From the NCBI RefSeq assembly GCF_001013475.1, contig NZ_JZEF01000004.1, forward strand, positions 310,001 to 374,000: a stretch of 64,000 nt of DNA, in the 5' to 3' direction. This document shows positions 1,843 to 21,104 of this stretch, one piece after another. This stretch comes from Xanthomonas arboricola pv. juglandis (lineage in GTDB: Bacteria > Pseudomonadota > Gammaproteobacteria > Xanthomonadales > Xanthomonadaceae). A program made the translations under genes and the position numbers. The notes under the pieces are model-generated. The model was not told the origin of the DNA, did not search any database, and saw nothing but the letters and a program-made list of their open reading frames with translations. Position 1 is the first letter of the stretch; each line of letters opens with the position of its first letter.

Positions 1843-3390
1843 ATGGCAACCACGCTCAACCCCTCCGAAATCAGCGACCTGATCAAGACCCGCATCGAGG
1901 CGGTCAAGCTGTCCGCAGAGTCGCGCAACGAAGGCTCCGTGACCAGCGTGTCCGACGGCATCGTGCGCATCTTCGGCCTGGCCGACGTGATGCAGGGCGA
2001 AATGATCGAACTGCCGAACAACACCTTCGCGCTCGCACTGAACCTGGAGCGCGATTCGGTCGGCGCCGTGGTGCTGGGCGATTACGAGAACCTGCGCGAA
2101 GGCGACGTGGCCAAGACCACCGGCCGCATCCTGGAAGTGCCGGTCGGTCCGGAACTGCTCGGTCGCGTGGTCAACGCGCTGGGCGAGCCGATCGACGGCA
2201 AGGGCCCGCTGGGCGCCAGCCAGACCGCACCGGTGGAGCGCGTTGCGCCCGGCGTTATCTGGCGCAAGTCGGTCGACCAGCCGGTGCAGACCGGTTACAA
2301 GTCGGTCGATGCGATGATCCCGATCGGCCGCGGCCAGCGCGAGCTGGTCATCGGTGACCGCCAGACCGGCAAGACCGCGCTGGCGATCGATGCGGTGATC
2401 AACCAGAAGGGCACCGGCATCAAGTGCGTGTACGTGGCGATCGGCCAGAAGGCCTCGACCGTTGCCAACATCGTGCGCAAGCTCGAAGAGAACGGCGCGC
2501 TGGCGCACACCGTGGTGGTGGCTGCGACCGCGTCCGAATCGGCCGCGATGCAGTACATCAGCCCGTATGCCGGCTGCACCATGGGCGAGTACTTCATGGA
2601 CCGCGGCGAAGACGCGCTGATCGTGTATGACGATCTGTCCAAGCAGGCCGTGGCCTACCGCCAGATCTCGCTGCTGCTCAAGCGCCCGCCGGGCCGCGAA
2701 GCCTATCCGGGCGACGTGTTCTATCTGCACTCCCGCCTGCTCGAGCGCGCTGCGCGCGTGTCCGAGGAGTACGTGGAGAAGTTCACCAACGGTGCGGTGA
2801 CCGGCAAGACCGGTTCGCTGACCGCGCTGCCGATCATCGAAACGCAGGCCGGCGACGTGTCCGCGTTCGTGCCGACCAACGTGATCTCGATCACCGACGG
2901 CCAGATCTTCCTGGAAACCGACCTGTTCAACGCCGGCATCCGCCCGGCCGTGAATGCCGGTATCTCGGTGTCGCGCGTCGGTGGTGCGGCCCAGACCAAG
3001 ATCATCAAGAAGCTGTCCGGCGGCATCCGTATCTCGCTGGCGCAGTACCGTGAGCTGGCCGCGTTCGCGCAGTTCGCCTCGGACCTGGACGAAGCCACCC
3101 GCAAGCAGCTCGAGCGCGGTCAGCGCGTCACCGAGCTGATGAAGCAGAAGCAGTACGCGCCGATGTCCATCGCCAACCAGGCGCTGTCGATCTATGCCGT
3201 CAACGAGGGCTACCTCGACGAAGTGCCGGTCAACAAGCTGTTGGCGTTCGAAGAAGGCCTGCACGCGCACTTCGCCAACACCCAGGGTGAACTGGTCTCC
3301 AAGATCAACAACACCGGCGGCTGGGACAACGACATCGAAGCTGCCTTCAAGAAGGGCATCGAAGAGTTCAAGACCACGGGCAGCTGGTAA
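1843..3390 (+). CDS. atpA: ATP synthase F1 subunit alpha
   Basis: Encodes the 515-residue alpha subunit of the F1 head, which carries the non-catalytic nucleotide sites. The P-loop GDRQTGKTA is near residue 170, and the family signature [13 protein letters not shown] is in the C-terminal half. The length matches the family. It is separated from atpG by 186 bp that contain one of the GGGATT-type inverted repeats described separately. Confidence 0.98.
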
Positions 3391-3394
3391 CAGC

Positions 3395-3563
3395 GCCGGG
3401 AGTCGGGATTGGGCATTCGGGATTCGTAGGAGCGGTGATCTGAGGGCTTGAACGCCCAGGATCACCACTTCGGATCTCCAGATTCAGGTACTCGGGGTTT
3501 GTGGGTGAGGTGACGTCGGCGGCTTTGGCCAATCCCGAATCACCCATCTCGAATCCCACCATC
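3395..3563 (+). repeat. Intergenic inverted repeat, atpA-atpG gap
   Basis: After the atpA stop codon there is a G-rich run built from GGGATTGGG/ATTCGGGATT units (about 3397-3429). About 100 bp later come the complementary C-rich units CCAATCCCGAATC and CATCTCGAATCCC (about 3529-3560), just before atpG. The arms can pair into a long stem. The same layout recurs in the atpG-atpD and atpD-atpC gaps and between prlC and fabB. The function is not known from the sequence. Confidence 0.75.
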
Positions 3564-3576
3564 GAAGCGAGCGAGT

Positions 3577-4440
3577 ATGGCAGGCGGACGCGAAATCAAA
3601 ACCAAGATCAAGAGCGTGCAGAACACCCGCAAGGTGACGCGCGCGCTCGAAATGGTCTCGGCCTCCAAGATCCGCAAGGCGCAGGACCGTATGAAGACCT
3701 CGCGTCCGTACGCGCAGGCGATGAAGCAGGTGATCGGGCATCTGGCGCAGGCCAGCACCGACTACCAGCATCCGTTCCTGGTCGAGCGCGAGCAGGTCAA
3801 GCGGGTCGGTTACATCGTGATCTCTTCCGATCGCGGCCTGGCCGGCGGCCTGAACAACAACTTGTTCCGCAGGATGCTGGGCGAAGTGCGCCCGTGGCAG
3901 GACAAGGGCGCCGAGATCGACGTGGTGACCATCGGCCAGAAGGCGTCGGCGTTCTTCCGTCGCATCAAGGTCAACATGGTCGGCAGCGTTACCCATCTGG
4001 GTGACAGTCCGCAGATCGAGCAGTTGATCGGTGTGATCAAGGTGATGCTGGATGCCTTCGTCGAGGGCAAGGTGGACCGCGTGTATTTGGTCTACAACCG
4101 CTTCGTTAACACGATGACGCAGAAGGCCAGCTTCGATCAGCTGCTGCCGCTGCCGGCCGCCGAGCACAAGGTGGCCCATCACGATTGGGATTACCTGTAC
4201 GAACCCGATGCCGCGACCGTGCTGGAGCACGTGATGACGCGTTACATCGAGTCGCTGGTGTACCAGGCCGTGCTGGAAAACGTGGCCTCCGAGCATGCTG
4301 CGCGCATGGTGGCGATGAAGGCCGCCAGCGACAACGCCAACAAGATGATCGGCACCTTGCAACTGGTCTACAACAAGGCGCGTCAGGCGGCGATCACCCA
4401 GGAAATTTCGGAAATCGTCAGCGGCGCGGCCGCCGTATAG
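3577..4440 (+). CDS. atpG: ATP synthase F1 subunit gamma
   Basis: Encodes the 287-residue gamma subunit, the central rotor shaft. The N-terminal helix ([17 protein letters not shown]) and the C-terminal helix with the family signature ([21 protein letters not shown]) are both visible, so the protein is complete. It is preceded and followed by gaps carrying the GGGATT-type inverted repeats. Confidence 0.97.
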
Positions 4441-5969
<1,529 letters not shown>

Positions 5970-9271: not shown

Positions 9272-9380
9272 CTTGCCTGCAGGCGTGCGGCCTGGCTGCA
9301 CGTCGCTGCAGCGCGCACAGCTGCTGTAAAGCGATGCCATGCATAGGCTACGCCCGTCACGATGGTTCAAGAGGTGCACG

Positions 9381-10352
9381 ATGCGAACGCCACGTTGCGT
9401 GTTGCTGGTGACATGGCTGCTGCTATTGGCGGCAGTGCTGCCAGCTGCGGCCCATGCGCAGACCTACCGGCTGTATCTGGCGCCGGACGGCAACGATGCG
9501 GCGGCAGGCACCAGCGCAACGACCGCGTTGCGGAGTCTGGCGGCCGCCCAGCAGCGGCTGCTGGAGCAGCGGCCCAGCGGCGCGGTGGACGTGGTGATCG
9601 CCGCCGGCACGTATCTGCGGCAGTCGGTGCAATGGACGTTCACCAACGGGGCGCCCATTCGCTTTATCGCCGCGTCCGACGCTGCCGCGCCACCGTGGTT
9701 CGACGGGCGCGGTGGCGCGACCTGGTTCACGCTGAAGGGCGGCAGCGATGCTGCCACCCGGCTGACCTTCACCGGGTTGAAGGTCAGCAATTACTGGATG
9801 GCGATGGACCTGGGCAGCAGCAAGCGCAGCGCGGACGGCAACAGCGGCAACATCATCCGCAACATGACTTTCGAGCGGGTCGGTGGTGTCCATGGCAGCA
9901 GCAGTGAGGCCGCCTATTCGTTCGCGGCGATCCGCCTGCAGAACTCGCGCGACAACCGAATCGAACACAATCGCTTCGTGTCGATCGAAAACGACACCCG
10001 GACTTCGGGTTTCGTGCACGCGATCTACCTGGCGCGCCACTCGTCCGGCAACCGCATCGAAGGCAATACCTTCACCGACGTCAACGGCGATGCCGTGCGT
10101 ACCCGCGATGCCTCCGACAACACCTACGTGGCGGCCAACCGTTTCGTCCGGGCTGGCAAGTACGCGGCGTTCTCGGACTGGATCAAGCCCGATGGCGAAT
10201 GTCCGTCGCAAGGCGGGCAGTTTGTCGACAACACCGTTGGAACCGGCTATTACGGCACGATCGCCGCCACCCGCACCAGCGGTGCCGACGATGCCTGCGG
10301 TGCGTTGAAACAAGCGCGGATTGAAGAACGCGGAACGATGCGCGGCAACTAG
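9381..10352 (+). CDS. Secreted right-handed beta-helix repeat protein
   Basis: A 323-residue protein with a clear signal peptide (hydrophobic residues about 7-20, ending AAAHAQ) and then parallel beta-helix repeats such as NIIRNMTFERV, NRIEHNRFVSI, NRIEGNTFTDV and NTYVAANRFV. The N-terminal part (YLAPDGNDAAAGTSATTALRS) is the entry seen in secreted polysaccharide-binding or -cleaving beta-helix proteins. A GAGGTG ribosome site sits just ahead of the ATG at 9381. The catalytic function is not determined: no pectate-lyase calcium motif was recognised. It stands alone between glmU and the convergent kinase gene, whose end overlaps it by 4 bp. Confidence 0.72.
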   Translation: MRTPRCVLLVTWLLLLAAVLPAAAHAQTYRLYLAPDGNDAAAGTSATTALRSLAAAQQRLLEQRPSGAVDVVIAAGTYLRQSVQWTFTNGAPIRFIAASDAAAPPWFDGRGGATWFTLKGGSDAATRLTFTGLKVSNYWMAMDLGSSKRSADGNSGNIIRNMTFERVGGVHGSSSEAAYSFAAIRLQNSRDNRIEHNRFVSIENDTRTSGFVHAIYLARHSSGNRIEGNTFTDVNGDAVRTRDASDNTYVAANRFVRAGKYAAFSDWIKPDGECPSQGGQFVDNTVGTGYYGTIAATRTSGADDACGALKQARIEERGTMRGN

Positions 10353-11709
10353 CCGGCTGCCGCCGCCGGCAGCAGCAAGGTGACGCACAACCCGCCGTGT
10401 TCGCGGTTATGCAGCGAGATGCGCCCGCCGTGCGCTTCGGCGATCTCGCGGGTGAGCGCAAGCCCGAGCCCTGTGCCATTGCGCTTGGTCGAGTAGAACG
10501 GCATCAGTGCGTTATGCAGCACGGCCTCGTTCATGCCGTTGCCGCGGTCCAGCACTTCGATCCGTAGCCATTGCGGCACGCGCGTGACGCGCACGGCGAC
10601 ATCGCTGTTGGGCGGCTGCGCTTCGCTGCAGGCTTCGTGCGCGTTCTTGAGCAGGTTGAGCAGCGCCTGCTCGATCTGCGCGGCATCGATGCGGCTGGAG
10701 ACATCGCTCAGTGCGCCCTGCAGCTGAAACGGAATCTGCTGCCGCAAACGCTCCAGGAACGGTGCCCATTCGATGGTCTGCAACTGCGGCTGCGGCAACT
10801 TGGCAAAGCGGGCGTAGCCGCGGATGAAGCCTTCCAGATGACGTGCGCGTTCTTCGATGGTCTCGAACACCGTGCCGAGCCGGTCGGTGCGTTCGCGGCG
10901 CAGCAACTCGGCGCCGGAATGTGCCAGCGATGCGATCGGTGCGAGCGAATTGTTCAATTCATGGCTGATCACGCGGATGACCTTCTTCCAGGTCTGCACT
11001 TCCTGGCGCCGCAGTTCGGTGGTGAGGGTGCGGATCAGCAGCAGCTCGTGACCGCGTCCGTTGAGATGGAAACTGCGGCGTGACAGGTGATAGATCTGCT
11101 CGTCGTCTTCGTCATCGCCGTCCTCGCGGACCGCAAACAGGCAATCGCCGCCGCGGGCCAGCGCATCGCGCAGTTCGCCGGGCATGCGCGCCAGCACGTC
11201 GTCCAGGTGCTGGCCTTCGAGCTTGCGGCCATCGTGCAGCAGCTTGCGTGCGGCGTTGTTGGAAAAACCGATGCGGCGCACGCCATCGCCACCGGCCACC
11301 ACCAGCAGCATCGCCACCGGGGTGTTCTGCAGCATGGTGTCGAGCATCAGTTCGCGCTGCACCAGGTTGCGCCGTTGCGCGCGCAGCACCTCGCCCAGTT
11401 CCGCGTGCGCCTGCACCAGCTGCGCCAGCTCGTCGTTGCCGCGCCAGTACACGCCGAAGTTGTATTCGCCATCGCGGTAGCTGCTGGTGGTGCCGGCCAG
11501 GGCACGGAACAGCGAGCGCATCGGCGCAGTGGCGCGGCTGAGGCTGAACCACATCGCCGACAGCAGCACCACCACCGACACCGCAGCCACTTGCCAGCCA
11601 CGGTCCATCCAGTACGCCATGAACCAGGGCAGCGCGGCGGCCAGCGCCAGCACCGGCAACAGCCGCAAGAACAGCGAGAACGTGAAGGAACGTTGCCACA
11701 TGTCGGGAA

Positions 11710-11713
<4 letters not shown>
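10349..11713 (-). CDS. Membrane sensor histidine kinase (NtrY-like)
   Basis: A 454-residue kinase. Two membrane helices lie at about residues 12-33 and 42-58, with almost no periplasmic loop between them, so it probably senses in or at the membrane. A PAS-like region spans about 115-230, the H-box has His251 in VISHELNNS, and the ATPase domain shows NLLKNAHEAC, DRGNGM and GTGLGLA. Its ATG overlaps the stop codon of the sigma54 regulator (ATGA), so the two are translated together and form a cognate pair. An acidic insertion (EDGDDEDDE) near residue 200 is unusual. The signal is unknown; the adjacent exporter suggests an envelope or export-related stimulus. Confidence 0.9.
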
Positions 11714-13053
<1,340 letters not shown>

Positions 13054-13470
13054 CGCGGTGCTCGGTGAAAGGCGCGGGAGGGAATGGCTATCAGAACAGG
13101 ATTCGGCGCGTGGCGGAACTGTGCGAGCAATAGGAAGGGTAGGTGCCTGACTGGCCTTTGCCAGACCGAGCTGATTGCGGCACTGCAGTGATCGCCTGAT
13201 CGGTGCGATGAGGTTGGCAGCGGACATGCGTCGATGCCGAGCTCAAGTGCAGATCCAGGCGCAACGCTGGATATCAGCACGGGGCAGGCGCCTGCGACAC
13301 AGGCGCCTTGGTAGACAGGGCGGTGGTGACAAAATCGGCATTGCCCAGGCGGCCGACGGCCAAGTCACTTGTGGCGATGCTGCCATCGCGCAGGATCTAA
13401 GCAACATCACTGTGTGCTGTGTGCTGCGCGTCAGTGGGTCGACAGCGACCGCTGACGCGCAGCGTGCGCA
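13054..13470. other. Gap between exporter permease and regulator genes
   Basis: 417 bp without a supported gene. Open frames here lack any domain or good start. A perfect hairpin, GGCGCCTG-CGACA-CAGGCGCC (13287-13307), lies in the middle but has no T-run on the minus strand. I found no clear -24/-12 element, so whether regulator and kinase are read through from the exporter operon or have their own promoter cannot be decided. Confidence 0.6.
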
Positions 13471-14703
13471 TCACGCGCTGCGTGTGGCCACCGCCGGCGG
13501 CACCATCGCGGCACGCCGTGCGGGCCAGTACACGGCGATCTGGCCCAGCGCCCAGAGCAACAGTGCGCCGATCGGCAGATACAGCACCGGCAGGCGCGGC
13601 AATTCGTAGCGGGCCATCAGCCAGACATTGATCGAGTACGCCAGCAACATGCCGAGCACGATACCGACCGAGGCGAGCAGAAAATTCTCGATCTGGAAGT
13701 AGCGCAGGATCTGGCCGCGTGTGGCACCCAGTGCACGACGAATGCCAATCTGCTTGGTGCGTTGCTGCACCCAGAAGCTGGCCAGGCCGACGATGCCCAG
13801 CGCGGTGACGATCAGCAGCGCGATGCAGACCGCACCAAGCAGCCAGACCATGGCGCGGTCGTTCTGGAAGTATTCCTCGCGGATCTCGCTATAGGTCTGT
13901 TGCTTCAGCACCAGCCGGCTGTTGTCCAGCTTCATCAATGCGGCGACCGCAGATTGCAACACCTCTGCGCGACGCGTCTGATCGGTCACACGGATCATGT
14001 ACTGGCCTGAGGTGTAATCGATGCGGATTGGCAGCAGCATCGAGTAATTGCTCTGGTTGACGCCATTGGAATTGCTGTTGTTGGGGCGTGCCAGTGTCTG
14101 CACGATGCCGATTATGTGTAACGCCGTCTCGCCCGCGTAAATTGTCTTGCCCAACGCAGGTTGGGTCGGGAACAGTTTGTCGGCCATGGTCTGCGCGATG
14201 ATCACCGAAATGCCTTTTTTATCGAGAGACCTGTCGTTATTCGCCTGCTCCATATCAATGATTTCGTTTGCAGTGAAATCCCTGCCTGCCACCAGTTGCA
14301 GGCCAAGCGTGCTCACAGCACTTTCGCCCGACATGTATTGCGCAGCATTGAGCGTCTGACGCTCCTGCTCTCGGGTCAGGGAGATGCTGCTGTTCCAGGA
14401 ATAATTGACGAAGGGAATCTGATTGATTGCTGTCGCCCCGCGTACACCGGGCAGGCTGCGCAGTGCTGCCAGATCCTCACGCGTGCGCGCTTCTGCATTG
14501 ACCTGGGTGCCGATGCCTCCCAATTGGATGCTGACCAGTTCCGATTCGGCGATGCCGCTGGGCTGCTGCAGCGTTTCAATGCGGTTGCCGATCAGAAACA
14601 TGGCATTGCAGATGATCGCGCAGGCCAGTGCGATCTCGAGCACGATCAGCGCTGCTGCTGTCTTGTGACGGCGCAACGTGGAAATGATGGGGCGGATGTC
14701 CAT
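13471..14703 (-). CDS. FtsX/MacB-like ABC exporter permease (second)
   Basis: A 410-residue permease with the MacB/FtsX layout: one N-terminal helix (about 17-40), a large periplasmic domain, and three C-terminal helices (about 285-310, 335-360, 375-395). The cytoplasmic motif QIGIRRALGATRGQILRYF, which contacts the ATPase, is intact. It is the last exporter gene, 54 bp downstream of the first permease. Two different permeases of similar size suggest a heterodimer. The substrate is unknown. Confidence 0.87.
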   Translation of the reverse strand: MDIRPIISTLRRHKTAAALIVLEIALACAIICNAMFLIGNRIETLQQPSGIAESELVSIQLGGIGTQVNAEARTREDLAALRSLPGVRGATAINQIPFVNYSWNSSISLTREQERQTLNAAQYMSGESAVSTLGLQLVAGRDFTANEIIDMEQANNDRSLDKKGISVIIAQTMADKLFPTQPALGKTIYAGETALHIIGIVQTLARPNNSNSNGVNQSNYSMLLPIRIDYTSGQYMIRVTDQTRRAEVLQSAVAALMKLDNSRLVLKQQTYSEIREEYFQNDRAMVWLLGAVCIALLIVTALGIVGLASFWVQQRTKQIGIRRALGATRGQILRYFQIENFLLASVGIVLGMLLAYSINVWLMARYELPRLPVLYLPIGALLLWALGQIAVYWPARRAAMVPPAVATRSA

Positions 14704-14757
14704 GGGTGGTACCTTCGATGAGAGGCCGTGCCCGCCGCAGCGCGGCGGGCGTGGTGG

Positions 14758-16059
14758 TCAGGACGCCTTGAGCTGCAGTGCGGGTGCAACCTGGATGGCG
14801 CGCCAGGACGGCAGCAAGCCGGCCAATAGGCTGGCAACCAGCGCCAATGCGAAGGTGAGCAACAGCATCTTCGGATCCAGGTGCGCAAGCTTGGCGTAGT
14901 CGACAGGTTGTTGGCGCACCACCCACAAGCCCAACCATGCCAGCCCAAGCCCTGTAATACCGCCCGCAAGTCCGATGGTTCCGGCTTCGACCAGACACTG
15001 CGCAAAGATGGCGCCGCGTGAGGCGCCCAGGGCACGACGCACACCGATCTCTCCACTGCGGCGCAGGAACTTGGCTAGCAACAGGCCAACAGTATTGAGC
15101 AGGCACACCAGTAGAAAGCCCATCGCCAGCCACAGCTGCAGGCGAACGTCGCCAGGAACCACTTCCTTATAATCCAGCCACTCCATCACGTTACGCAGGC
15201 GGGTATTGTTCGGACGTTCGAAACGCCCTGCAGCGCGCTGCTGATCGGAGTAGTTATCCAGATAGGCTTTGTAGTCGCCAGCCTGCGCTGGGCTATCCAG
15301 CTCCACCCAATACTGCATCCAGGTGCAGGACGCGTTGAGCGCGGTTTGATCACTGTTGTCGCTCTTGCCGTAGCAATTCATACCACCGTAGTGATCCATC
15401 TTCAGATCTATCGCCACTGAAAACGGCAGATACACTTGCTCGTCTGAGCCATAGCTATTGCTGAGATCGTAGAAGCGCGGATTGGCCTTCCAGTCAGCGA
15501 GAACGCCAACGATGCGGAAGGTGTTCTTGTCCATGCGCAAATCGCGGCCGATGCTGTTGCCGCCGTCGAACAGCTTGTCGTTGAGTTCCTGGGTGATTAC
15601 CGCAACGCGCTCGTGCGCCTCGTCGCTACTTGCTGACCAGCCTTGGCCATACAGGAAAGGCGTTTCGAACATCGGGAAGAAATCGGCCGAGGTAAAGCGA
15701 ACTTCTGATTTGAAGGCGGTCATGCCGCTCTTGTCTGGCTCGATCGCCACTCTTCCGCCGGTCATCAGCGCCTGGCGTTTTGCGTGCTTTTCACGCAGCA
15801 GCGCTTCGGCATCGAAGCGAGTGACCTGGTCGCCAGGCTCTTCTCCCGGCTGGTATCCGGCCTTGGGGTATGGATCCACCAGGACGCTAAACAGCCGGTC
15901 GCTCTTCTGCGGGATCGGATCGCCGGACAGCACATAGAACACCGTCAGGGTGGTCATGCTGGCGCCGATGCCGAGTGCGATGGCCAGCACCATCAGCGCG
16001 GTGAGCACCTTGTTGCGGCGGAAGCTGCGTAAGGCAAGATTGAAGTAGTAGCCGAACAT
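14758..16059 (-). CDS. FtsX/MacB-like ABC exporter permease (first)
   Basis: A 433-residue permease with an N-terminal helix (about 17-40), a long periplasmic domain and three C-terminal helices. The coupling motif GEIGVRRALGASRGAIFAQ is present. The periplasmic domain differs clearly from that of the neighbouring permease. It lies 12 bp downstream of the ATPase gene, so it belongs to one transcript running adaptor, ATPase, permease, permease. Confidence 0.88.
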   Translation of the reverse strand: MFGYYFNLALRSFRRNKVLTALMVLAIALGIGASMTTLTVFYVLSGDPIPQKSDRLFSVLVDPYPKAGYQPGEEPGDQVTRFDAEALLREKHAKRQALMTGGRVAIEPDKSGMTAFKSEVRFTSADFFPMFETPFLYGQGWSASSDEAHERVAVITQELNDKLFDGGNSIGRDLRMDKNTFRIVGVLADWKANPRFYDLSNSYGSDEQVYLPFSVAIDLKMDHYGGMNCYGKSDNSDQTALNASCTWMQYWVELDSPAQAGDYKAYLDNYSDQQRAAGRFERPNNTRLRNVMEWLDYKEVVPGDVRLQLWLAMGFLLVCLLNTVGLLLAKFLRRSGEIGVRRALGASRGAIFAQCLVEAGTIGLAGGITGLGLAWLGLWVVRQQPVDYAKLAHLDPKMLLLTFALALVASLLAGLLPSWRAIQVAPALQLKAS

Positions 16060-16071
16060 GGGATGTGCCTC

Positions 16072-16791
<720 letters not shown>

Positions 16792-16894
16792 TGCCGATTC
16801 CTTTACGAAGAAGGTGTGTGCGAAAGAGGTTGAGAGTGGCTGACAAACCGTGGCGAGCAGCCTGATGGCTGCGCAGCAGGTGTGCTGGCCGCCT

Positions 16895-18166
16895 TTAGTG
16901 AACGGTGACGCGCGGCGCATCCCCGAAGTTGTCTGCGCCGGAGACCACCACGCGGTCGCCGACCTGCAGCCCGGACAGCACCTGCACCTCGCCCAGGCTG
17001 CTGACACCCATGCGCACCGGCCGGCGCACCGCGGTGTTGCCATCCATCACGTAGGCGTAGCTGCCGCCGGATTGTTCGACGAACGGGCCGCGCTCGACCT
17101 TGAGCACGTTGCGGCGCGTGTCCATCACCACGCGTGCGCTCATGCGCTGGCTCTGGCGCAGGCCTGGCGGCTGCTTGTCGGCAAAGCGGATGCGTGCGGT
17201 GACTTCGCCATTGACCACTTCCGGCGACACCGCCGAGATCGCGCCGGGGAACGGCTCGCCGCTGCCGCTGGTGAGCTGCGCCGGCATGCCGATTGCCAGA
17301 TCGCGCGCAAAGCTCTCCGGCACCTTGATCTCCACTTCGAACTTGGACAGATCCACCACGCCCAGGATCGGCGCGTTTGCCGCGACCTGGGTGTGCTGCA
17401 CCGCCTGCACCTGGCCGACCTGGCCATCGAACGGCGACAGCAGCGTGAGCGCATCGACCTGGCGCTGCACCTCGGCCACCACCGCGCGCTGGCGGTCGGC
17501 GAGCAGGCGCTTGTTGCGCGAATCCAGGTCTGCACCCTGGCTCTTCAGCGACGCATCCCGCTCGGCGTGCTGCAGATCGATGTCGGTCTTCTTCAAGGTG
17601 TCCTGCGCCTTGGCCAGCTCCACCTGCGGCACCGCGCCGCCATCGTAGCCGCGCTGGTAGCGCTCCAGGTCGCGCGCGGCGGCCTGCTTGTCGATCTTGG
17701 CCTGATCGGTGAGCTTGCTGGCCGTGGCGCGGGCCAGGGTGGCGTCCAGGGCGGCGCGGCTGGACTCGGCTTCCAGCCCTGCCAGCGTGGCCTGCTCCTG
17801 GGCCAGCTTGCTGCGCAGCTCCGGGCTGTCGATGCGGGCCAGCTCCTGGCCCTGCTTGACCACGTCGCCGGCCACCACGCTCAGCGTCACCGTGCCGGCC
17901 GAGATGGCGTACAGCACGGGGCTGTTGGCGGCGATGACGCGCCCGTCGGCGGCGATGTCGCGCACCAGGTCGCCCTGGCTGACCGTGGCGATCCGCACCC
18001 GGCTGGCATCGAACGAGCGGCTGCCGGCGCTCCACGCGGTGACCGCCCAGCCGATGCCGGCCAACACGGCGACCACCGCAATGCCGGGCCATAGCCAACG
18101 GCGCCAGGGCGCGCTCTGGGCGGGTGTACGGAGAACCTGGTCCTGGGCGGAAGTATCGCGAATCAT
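16895..18166 (-). CDS. MacA/HlyD-like periplasmic adaptor subunit
   Basis: A 423-residue membrane-fusion protein. It has an N-terminal anchor helix at about residues 21-42 and a biotinyl-lipoyl half-motif ([20 protein letters not shown]). A long helical hairpin rich in Ala/Gln/Lys spans about 100-210, and beta-barrel domains follow ([10 protein letters not shown] onward). It should link the inner-membrane ABC unit to an outer-membrane channel; no TolC-like gene is nearby. I place the start at 18166: the upstream ATG at 18208 lies inside the sigma54 promoter, so it would be outside the transcript. Confidence 0.88.
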
Positions 18167-18196
18167 GGTCGGCTGGCTCGGTGGCGTCACTGCGAT

Positions 18197-18217
18197 AAAG
18201 CAGGACATGTGCCAACC
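18197..18217 (-). promoter_or_regulatory. Sigma54 (-24/-12) promoter of the exporter operon
   Basis: On the minus strand the sequence reads TTGGCACATGTCCTGCTTTA. The GG of the -24 element (18213-18212) and the GC of the -12 element (18201-18200) are separated by exactly 10 bp, as sigma54 requires. Agreement with TGGCACG-N4-TTGC is strong, with two mismatches. Transcription would start near 18188, 22 bp before the adaptor start codon. The NtrC-type activator in the same cluster is the obvious partner. Confidence 0.82.
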
Positions 18218-18260
18218 TACAAGTCATTGAATATATTGGATTTTAGATGTTTGCGGCCAG

Positions 18261-18333
18261 TGTCCGCAGTGTCCGCGGACACTGCTGCGGACACGCTGTC
18301 CGGGCATGGTCATGCAGCGGACAAGAGCGGACA
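18261..18333. promoter_or_regulatory. Array of TGTCCGC/GCGGACA operator repeats
   Basis: Six exact copies of the heptamer lie within 73 bp: TGTCCGC at 18261 and 18270; GCGGACA at 18275, 18287, 18317 and 18327. A degenerate TGTCCGG is at 18297. Two overlap to make the perfect 18-bp palindrome CAGTGTCCGCGGACACTG. The array lies about 70-145 bp upstream of the predicted sigma54 start, the usual place for activator sites of NtrC-type regulators. It also reaches to within 40 bp of glmS. Confidence 0.75.
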
Positions 18334-18370
18334 CGCTAAAATGCCCGGCTTCGTCATCAAGGGTTGTCCT

Positions 18371-20200
<1,830 letters not shown>

Positions 20201-20468
20201 CGGCACAAGCCCGGCATCGTGCTTGGTCGGAGATGACGATCGGTAACTGGAGAGTCATTCGTCCAACTGGCGCTGACGGGTGATGGGCGTGTAGGTACCG
20301 ATTCGTCCAACATGAAAAATGCAGAAGGGCGGGGTGCGTCATTGCTCCCGTCCTTTCGCGTTTCCACAGCGCGACTCGCGGCGTGTCACCCACAGACTGG
20401 ATGGCGCATGCTGGTTATGCGAGGGGGCTTGGCCTGACCATTGAGGCGCGACTCGGCATCCAGGGGCG

Positions 20469-21104
20469 CTAGTCGCGCTCTCGTTCCCCTGCGAGGATCG
20501 CTGCCAGAGCGTCCGCGTTCAGCACATTGACCTTGCCGTAGCCAACGTCGATCAAGCCTTGGGCTTTCCAGGCCTTCAAGAGCCGGTTCACGGTAGGACG
20601 GGAGACGCCCAGCCTATCGGCAAGAGCACTCTGTGGCATGCGGATGCTGGGTTGGGCAGTGAGAAGCTGGGCCGCCAGCCGGCGTTCGAGCGAACGTGCC
20701 TGATTGGCTTCAATCCAGTTCAGGGTCTGCCGATAGCGTGAGCACACCAGGCGGGTGATGGCCAGCAGCGCCGCCGGGTTGGATGCGATCACCCGGTTGA
20801 AGGCGACAGTCGAGACGACGGCGATCTTGCTACGTCCGTGGGCCACCGCGCTGAACGTCCGTGCCCGCGCATCCAGTAGTGGAACTTCCCCAAACCACTG
20901 GCCTGGTCCAAGCACCAGCGACAGCCTCTCGCTGAGCTGCATCGGCTCCAGCGAGACCCGGACCGCGCCGCTGAGAATGCCGAACATGCAGGCAGGGGTG
21001 GAGCCCAGATCAAAGATCCGCTGGCCCGCAACAAACGTTCGAGCCGACGCCTGGGAGAGAAAAATCTCTGCAATCTCTGGACTCAGGGTGCCATCGTCGG
21101 GCAT
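20469..21104 (-). CDS. Crp/Fnr family transcriptional regulator
   Basis: A 211-residue regulator with an N-terminal cyclic-nucleotide-binding-like beta-roll (about residues 20-115, including LGPGQWFGEVPLLD) and a C-terminal winged helix with MPQSALADRLGVSRPTVNRL near residues 155-175. No Fnr-type cysteine cluster is present. The canonical cAMP phosphate-binding RS motif is not obvious (ARARTFSAVA), so the ligand is uncertain. It is divergent from the membrane protein gene at 21194 across 89 bp and may control it. Confidence 0.88.
   Translation of the reverse strand: MPDDGTLSPEIAEIFLSQASARTFVAGQRIFDLGSTPACMFGILSGAVRVSLEPMQLSERLSLVLGPGQWFGEVPLLDARARTFSAVAHGRSKIAVVSTVAFNRVIASNPAALLAITRLVCSRYRQTLNWIEANQARSLERRLAAQLLTAQPSIRMPQSALADRLGVSRPTVNRLLKAWKAQGLIDVGYGKVNVLNADALAAILAGERERD

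Follow-up and report, generated by a model that had tools for sequence, protein, structure and literature searches.

A conserved half-site array and putative sigma54 promoter ahead of a MacA-like exporter cluster with its own NtrC-type regulator and kinase in Xanthomonas arboricola

The 64,000-nt stretch of Xanthomonas arboricola pv. juglandis DNA analysed here (the window) carries a minus-strand cluster of exporter and two-component genes. Its macA gene (16895-18166) encodes a MacA/HlyD-type periplasmic adaptor, which passes the TIGR01730 model (131.6 bits, cut-off 94.9), matches PF13437 and PF16576, and falls below the MacA equivalog model NF008606 (70.1 of 342 bits). It is followed by a MacB/LolD-type ABC ATPase encoded as a separate subunit (16072-16791; PF00005), whose best NCBIfam model is DarD, the darobactin exporter ATPase (264.3 bits, under the cut-off of 375). 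Profile matches then identify two FtsX/MacB_PCD permeases, permease 1 at 14758-16059 and permease 2 at 13471-14703, each with a periplasmic part that varies between species. With ATPase and permeases on separate genes, the arrangement is not that of a single-chain MacB. Among solved relatives of permease 1, MacB ranked first, followed by another ABC permease, LolC and FtsX. A mechanical count in the window and 72 other loci (among the best 80 of 507) found 2, 3, 4 and 6 permease genes in 55, 10, 6 and 2 of the 73 clusters, respectively.

The divergent neighbour on the macA side is glmS, for glucosamine-6-phosphate synthase (18371-20200, plus strand; TIGR01135, 863.6 bits), which is not assigned to the module; glmU is situated past the opposite end of the exporter cluster, and a plus-strand gene between glmU and the kinase end (9339-10352) shows a weak NosD/beta-helix match (PF05048, 24.9 bits, cut-off 23.6). 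No outer-membrane factor was found in the cluster or the window, and 25 OEP-domain matches occur elsewhere in the genome. The genome has one RpoN (sigma54) match, on a different contig from the window.

The regulator gene (11710-13053, minus strand) encodes, according to profile matches, an NtrC-type response regulator consisting of a receiver, a sigma54-activating AAA+ domain with a GAYTGA loop (PF00158, 220.1 bits) and a Fis-type helix-turn-helix, LSRQALYRRMDRYG. The initial annotation had described an NtrC-type activator with an intact sigma54-contact loop, and GAYTGA was indeed present in 81 of 81 regulators from the window and the best 80 of 507 loci. In a distant set from other families and orders, 8 of 12 regulators had GAYTGA and one had GAFTGA. 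Changed loops were seen in three distant regulators, GAYTGL in L181 and L188 and GAFTSA in L186; L181 and L188 retain the array and promoter-like sequence described below despite this change. The recognition helix read SRQA(L/F)YRR in all 16 first-set regulators whose C-termini were inspected and also in the inspected distant C-termini, but TRQALYRR in L188, in keeping with a single operator half-site across the compared range. Among the best 80 of 507 loci, the eight nearest Xanthomonas records encode regulators with 93-97% identity to the window's, as compared to 78-85% for other Xanthomonas records. At E 1e-120 it was matched in 102 of 119 family genomes (96 of 108 among those of good quality), and at E 1e-140 in 19 of 398 genomes of a phylum sample, 7 of the 19 belonging to the family.

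Beside the regulator lies a paired histidine kinase gene (10349-11701, minus strand; PF02518, with PF00512 below its cut-off), which bears out the claim that the cluster has its own kinase. Its product has two N-terminal hydrophobic helices separated by a short loop. Topology was read from hydrophobicity windows only, and on that basis the loop measured 4-13 residues in 76 of 81 kinases (window and best 80 of 507 loci), the other five not being parsed by the pattern; the kinase thus appears to have hardly any sensor part outside the membrane. The 417-bp gap between permease 2 and the regulator contains one half-site and no sigma54-like element in the window, and it is therefore possible that regulator and kinase have a promoter of their own. 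A decayed permease pair was considered as the origin of this gap and discarded: in a blastn comparison with 10 loci, the only matches came from L011, L017, L014 and L012 and lay just before the regulator.

Array and promoter both lie within the 204-bp macA-glmS intergenic region. A sigma54-type -24/-12 element, TGGCACATGTCCTGCT, with GG-10-GC spacing lies on the minus strand at 18199-18214, just ahead of macA. Upstream of it, at 18220-18232 on the same strand, ATTCAATGACTTG is an IHF-like site with one mismatch to WATCAANNNNTTR, which we take to be the IHF consensus. An open reading frame in the macA frame uses an ATG at 18208. This codon falls within the -24/-12 element, so that macA must start downstream of it if the promoter is real, and macA homologues align from 18166 onward. 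The start at 18208 was therefore rejected, and macA most likely begins at 18166. An Rfam search of 10000-20500 gave no match, and a simple sigma70/terminator scan of 12900-18450 returned one site of each kind, against 0.6 and 3.4 expected.

The array core (18261-18293, minus strand) comprises four exact TGTCCGC/GCGGACA half-sites, among them the 18-bp palindrome CAGTGTCCGCGGACACTG at 18267-18284, which has no second match with up to three mismatches in the 64-kb window. Distal half-sites extend the array to 18333 (18297-18333, minus strand, by sequence match): TGTCCGG at 18297-18303 and GCGGACA at 18317-18323 and 18327-18333. The six exact 7-mers, at 18261, 18270, 18275, 18287, 18317 and 18327, are those counted in the initial annotation, two of them forming the palindrome, and array, palindrome and GG-10-GC element all lie where it had placed them; TGTCCGG is a seventh half-site. 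The array is about 47-119 bp from the -24 element. Its distance to the expected transcription start, which we infer to be near 18188, is about 73-145 bp, close to the 70-145 bp previously estimated. Of the eight near Xanthomonas loci (L011-L018), six retain both outermost half-sites and two retain one of them.

The window as a whole contains 17 copies of the 7-mer, as compared to a chance mean of 18.04. As this total matches chance, only the clustering is unusual: six copies are packed into 73 bp, whereas no more than 2 per 80 bp occurred in 200 first-order Markov simulations of a 64-kb window. The exact 12-base operator core TGTCCGCGGACA is unique in the genome (5.08 Mb in 8 contigs). Copies with one mismatch were scattered over 19 other places (11 matches in the reversed control), and TGTCCG-N(0-14)-CGGACA pairs were not enriched, with 9 genome-wide as compared to 16 in the reversed control. 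The genome-wide search for the operator that the initial annotation had proposed as a way to define a regulon thus revealed no large one.

We compared the region ahead of macA in three sets of loci, whose rows are related sequences and not independent events, the Xanthomonas rows being especially repetitive. The first set came from a search with the regulator and comprised 71 regions, the window and 70 of the best 80 of 507 loci, 10 of the 80 being left out because the macA start was not in the fetched DNA. These regions contained 439 GTCCG/CGGAC half-sites, as compared to 55.0 in shuffled sequences, and at least three half-sites were present in 71 of 71 (4.05 expected). A sigma54 element was found in 70 of the 71, as compared to 1.2 in shuffles, the exception by pattern being L081. 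The exact core GTCCGCGGAC occurred in 43 of 71 (0.035 in shuffles), in 42 of these 43 at 62-66 nt from the TGG, and an IHF-like match to the presumed consensus, with 0-1 mismatch, lay just upstream of the -24 element in 44 of 70 regions (1.0 in shuffles). TGTCCGCGGACA occurred 38 times in the 1,620,808 nt of the 80 loci (best of 507), each time upstream of macA. One first-set record, L066, is titled Bacillus subtilis, but its cluster, accompanied by glmU and glmS, is Stenotrophomonas-like; the record is probably mislabelled or contaminated.

A family set consisted of 16 usable stretches out of 20 chosen from further family genomes (L163, L165, L167 and L171 were left out). It contained 78 half-sites, as compared to 15.2 in shuffles, with at least three in 16 of 16 regions and a sigma54 element in 15 of 16 (absent by pattern in L166); the exact core GTCCGCGGAC was present in only 2 of 16. 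The distant set, with 11 usable of 12 stretches (L179 was left out), contained 54 half-sites, as compared to 7.0 in shuffles, with at least three in 10 of 11 and a sigma54 element in 10 of 11. The exact core GTCCGCGGAC was found in 6 of these 11 regions, 65-67 nt from the TGG in 6 of 6. In L182, L184, L185 and L187, the 160 nt preceding the promoter contain 3-5 half-sites, as compared to 0.0-0.2 expected; in L186, the 330 nt counted contain fewer than three, and two more lie just upstream. Half-site geometry differs between lineages, and the recurring order is a CGGAC half-site array, an IHF-like site, a -24/-12 element and a MacA-like gene followed by the same exporter/two-component cluster. 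This conservation in three sets of loci bears out the proposal of a sigma54 promoter with an upstream activator array ahead of the exporter, as far as comparison of sequences can.

The array also lies 38-110 bp upstream of glmS, a neighbour missing from the initial annotation, and a TAAAAT hexamer (18338-18343), possibly part of a glmS promoter, directly adjoins its distal half-sites. It could thus be a glmS control element, acting through the NtrC-type regulator or another factor, with the exporter as a bystander; in the first set, 59 of 71 regions (from the best 80 of 507 loci) have a glmS match within the locus. However, no glmS match was found in the loci of the other 12, which come from Massilia, Undibacterium and others; each of these regions nonetheless carries 3-10 half-sites, and the array stays with macA in the distant loci too. 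We also examined glmS in 17 family genomes lacking a regulator match, where 15 upstream regions of 18 loci were readable (L145, L151 and L152 were left out as having no start). Seven glmS loci with glmU and no cluster gene had 0, 2, 0, 0, 1, 1 and 0 half-sites, a sum of 4 as compared to about 5.6 expected, and three with macA or a kinase in the locus had 6, 4 and 4. Four remaining regions had 1, 0, 3 and 0, and L137 had 5 upstream of glmS with no cluster gene in the locus; the 15 together had 27, as compared to 11.5. L137 can be counted in favour of glmS, although its half-sites, accompanied by neither a cluster gene nor a sigma54 element, are perhaps the relic of a lost cluster. Because the array is kept without glmS, and half-sites at the seven glmS loci with glmU and no cluster gene are at background numbers, we rejected glmS as owner of the array and consider this explanation improbable. 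An additional effect of the array on glmS is possible, since its distal sites in the window lie beside the TAAAAT hexamer. Cluster-adjacent glmS itself varies in similarity to the window's, being 54-57% identical in L080 and L084 and 76-80% identical in Lysobacter, Thermomonas and Lysobacteraceae loci.

The half-sites are not exclusive to the macA region. The genome contains 24 TGGCACNNNNNYTGCW sites (15 in the reversed control), 3 of which have at least three half-sites in the 180 bp upstream, namely the macA promoter with 7 and two others with 3 and 5; each of the remaining 21 has one or none. The two others (C2:435078 and C2:439298) are near a second NtrC-type pair, whose regulator is at C2:433360-434697 and beside which small exported-looking proteins without a Pfam match are encoded. 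In L134 this second system occupies 1937-4704, with promoters near 5079 (plus strand) and 9299-9314 (minus strand). Its regulator has the recognition helix HRQLLYRK, which resembles that of the window regulator, and since the nearby promoters share the same half-sites, the second regulator might be the main protein bound to the array. This we regard as very improbable: among 10 relatives tested at E 1e-110 only 5 have the second regulator, whereas all 10 have the window regulator, and array and window regulator co-occur in other orders as well. Furthermore, one second-system promoter has TGTCYGC-N3-GCGGACA in L134, L189 and L193, a spacing that differs from that of the window array; in L190, L191 and L192 no sigma54-like site with at least two half-sites was found at the second system. 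It may be that half-site and recognition helix are coupled and that only the spacing varies. With half-sites also beside the second system, the pairing of the window regulator with the array rests on conservation and proximity. A third alternative, that the half-sites play no part in regulation and are a fortuitous cluster or a repeat dispersed in the genome, would agree with the unremarkable 7-mer total, the excess of pairs in the control and the few, scattered one-mismatch 12-mers, but its probability is negligible in view of clustering unseen in 200 simulations, a 12-mer unique in the genome, and conservation across families that includes the four distant loci with almost no half-sites expected; it was rejected on these grounds.

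The region is very probably the enhancer and sigma54 promoter of an exporter operon switched by its own regulator/kinase pair, because the array tracks the cluster and not glmS and every copy of TGTCCGCGGACA in the 80 loci (best of 507) is upstream of macA. Sites, order, spacing, linkage and regulator motifs were all read directly from the sequences and their comparison. In the mechanism that we envisage, the kinase would phosphorylate the NtrC-type regulator encoded at the operon end, and the phosphorylated regulator would bind the TGTCCGC/GCGGACA array, which would serve as enhancer. With the stretch between array and promoter bent by IHF, the GAYTGA loop would contact RNA polymerase-sigma54 at TGGCACATGTCCTGC, upon which RpoN-dependent transcription would start. 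The transcript would cover the adaptor, the ATPase, the two permeases and perhaps the regulator and kinase genes, which would imply autoregulation. The pump, together with an outer-membrane channel from elsewhere, would then act on an envelope-active compound, and the kinase, with almost nothing outside the membrane, would probably sense its signal through the membrane or the permeases.

Export or detoxification of envelope-active compounds, perceived either across the membrane or by way of the permeases, is accordingly the likeliest function, as suggested by the short-loop kinase, the best model for the ATPase (DarD, under its cut-off) and the solved relatives of permease 1. Of the overall interpretation in the initial annotation, the sigma54 promoter, the activator array, the NtrC-type regulator and the paired kinase held up under comparison. 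Its description as self-contained, with everything needed present, did not, as RpoN is encoded on another contig and the cluster has no outer-membrane factor; nor did the implied exclusivity of the half-sites. For an exporter, the locus offers a defined circuit of regulator, operator and promoter that lends itself to testing, and its regulator is present in 102 of the 119 sampled family genomes.

The locus resembles several known systems in part. NtrC, ZraR, AtoC and PilR have the same receiver-AAA+-Fis regulator with a GAFTGA-type loop, upstream sites, a -24/-12 element and an IHF-like site between them, and PilR sites are TGTC-type; the TGTCCGC half-site and the multi-site array are what differ. 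The window regulator was below the curated cut-off of all 25 NCBIfam models listed of 89 matched, the best being NtrC (340.9 of 558.6 bits). MacAB-TolC shares the MacA/HlyD adaptor, the MacB-like ATPase and FtsX/MacB_PCD permeases. In contrast to MacAB-TolC, the present cluster has separate ATPase and permease genes, two permeases (2-6 elsewhere among the best 80 of 507 loci), scores below the MacA and MacB equivalog cut-offs and no outer-membrane factor of its own. In the Bce modules of Firmicutes, short-loop two-helix kinases work with FtsX-superfamily transporters in antimicrobial-peptide sensing. Here, too, a kinase with two membrane helices and a very short loop is encoded with an FtsX-superfamily ABC transporter; however, the regulator is a sigma54 NtrC-type and not an OmpR-type protein, and there are two FtsX permeases and a periplasmic adaptor instead of one BceB-type permease.

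MacABCsm, SmaAB and SmaCDEF of Stenotrophomonas maltophilia, a related genus, are also ABC-type efflux pumps. In the accessible portions of the two sources, macABC is smlt1539 (PMC12189255), although PMC11356428 prints Smlt2642-3, and smaAB and smaCDEF are Smlt2642-3 and Smlt1651-4 (PMC12189255, PMC11356428). S. maltophilia relatives of the exporter cluster adjoin glmS, which an excerpt of PMC4411124 gives as smlt4099. On these tags the three pumps are other loci, and we rejected them as the same system. An open-access search on Smlt4099-4104 yielded literature on Smlt4099 only, a weak negative, and such an exporter does not appear in the accessible portions of PMC3162934 or PMC7280030. According to the available text of a 2025 paper (PMC12316311), predicted sigma54 promoters are enriched ahead of COG0577 FtsX-type permeases in Gammaproteobacteria, Opitutia and Bacteroidia, with COG1136 ATPases likewise enriched in Opitutia, and the sigma54-permease link is called first evidence; in contrast to the present locus, that text names no operator, regulator or cluster. 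In the open-access literature the operator core TGTCCGCGGACA appeared in no relevant paper and in one unrelated human-gene paper, an absence that weighs little. The earlier statement that no described system with this operator was known stands for the core as far as that literature goes, and is tempered by the published sigma54-permease link and by the half-sites at the second NtrC-type system. The module appears to be widespread and, within the reach of our open-access search, undescribed.

The permeases vary in a manner distinct from the rest of the cluster. Between the window and L014, identity is 97-99% in the adaptor, ATPase and regulator, whereas in 40-residue bins it is 28-65% in the periplasmic parts of the permeases and 72-100% at the permease ends. 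Along the DNA, identity starts at about 95%, drops to 48-74% from about 16020 to 13820 and then recovers to 91%. With codon bias uncorrected, dS was 3.15 (saturated) and 1.35 in the variable parts of the permeases, as compared to 0.20-0.24 in four flanking genes, a contrast better explained by allele replacement than by fast protein change alone. The pattern was reversed between L015 and L018, with dS of 0.18-0.26 in the permeases and 0.33-0.68 in other genes (codon bias likewise uncorrected). Thus, within 13820-16020, periplasmic allele classes appear to be exchanged between Xanthomonas species while the flanking genes remain 95-99% identical (window as compared to L011 and L014). A tentative idea, which we hold to be possible and no stronger, is that paired FtsX permeases read by a near-buried kinase form a sigma54-driven equivalent of Bce modules in Gram-negative bacteria, in which periplasmic domains are exchanged to follow competitors' antimicrobials while sensor, enhancer and promoter stay constant. 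If the variation reflects cargo, the locus offers a natural allele series for finding the substrate, and the alleles would also help to ask how a kinase with no obvious sensor domain detects it. Within the variable periplasmic part of permease 1, C229 and C245 are invariant in 39 of 39 aligned sequences and could form a disulfide.
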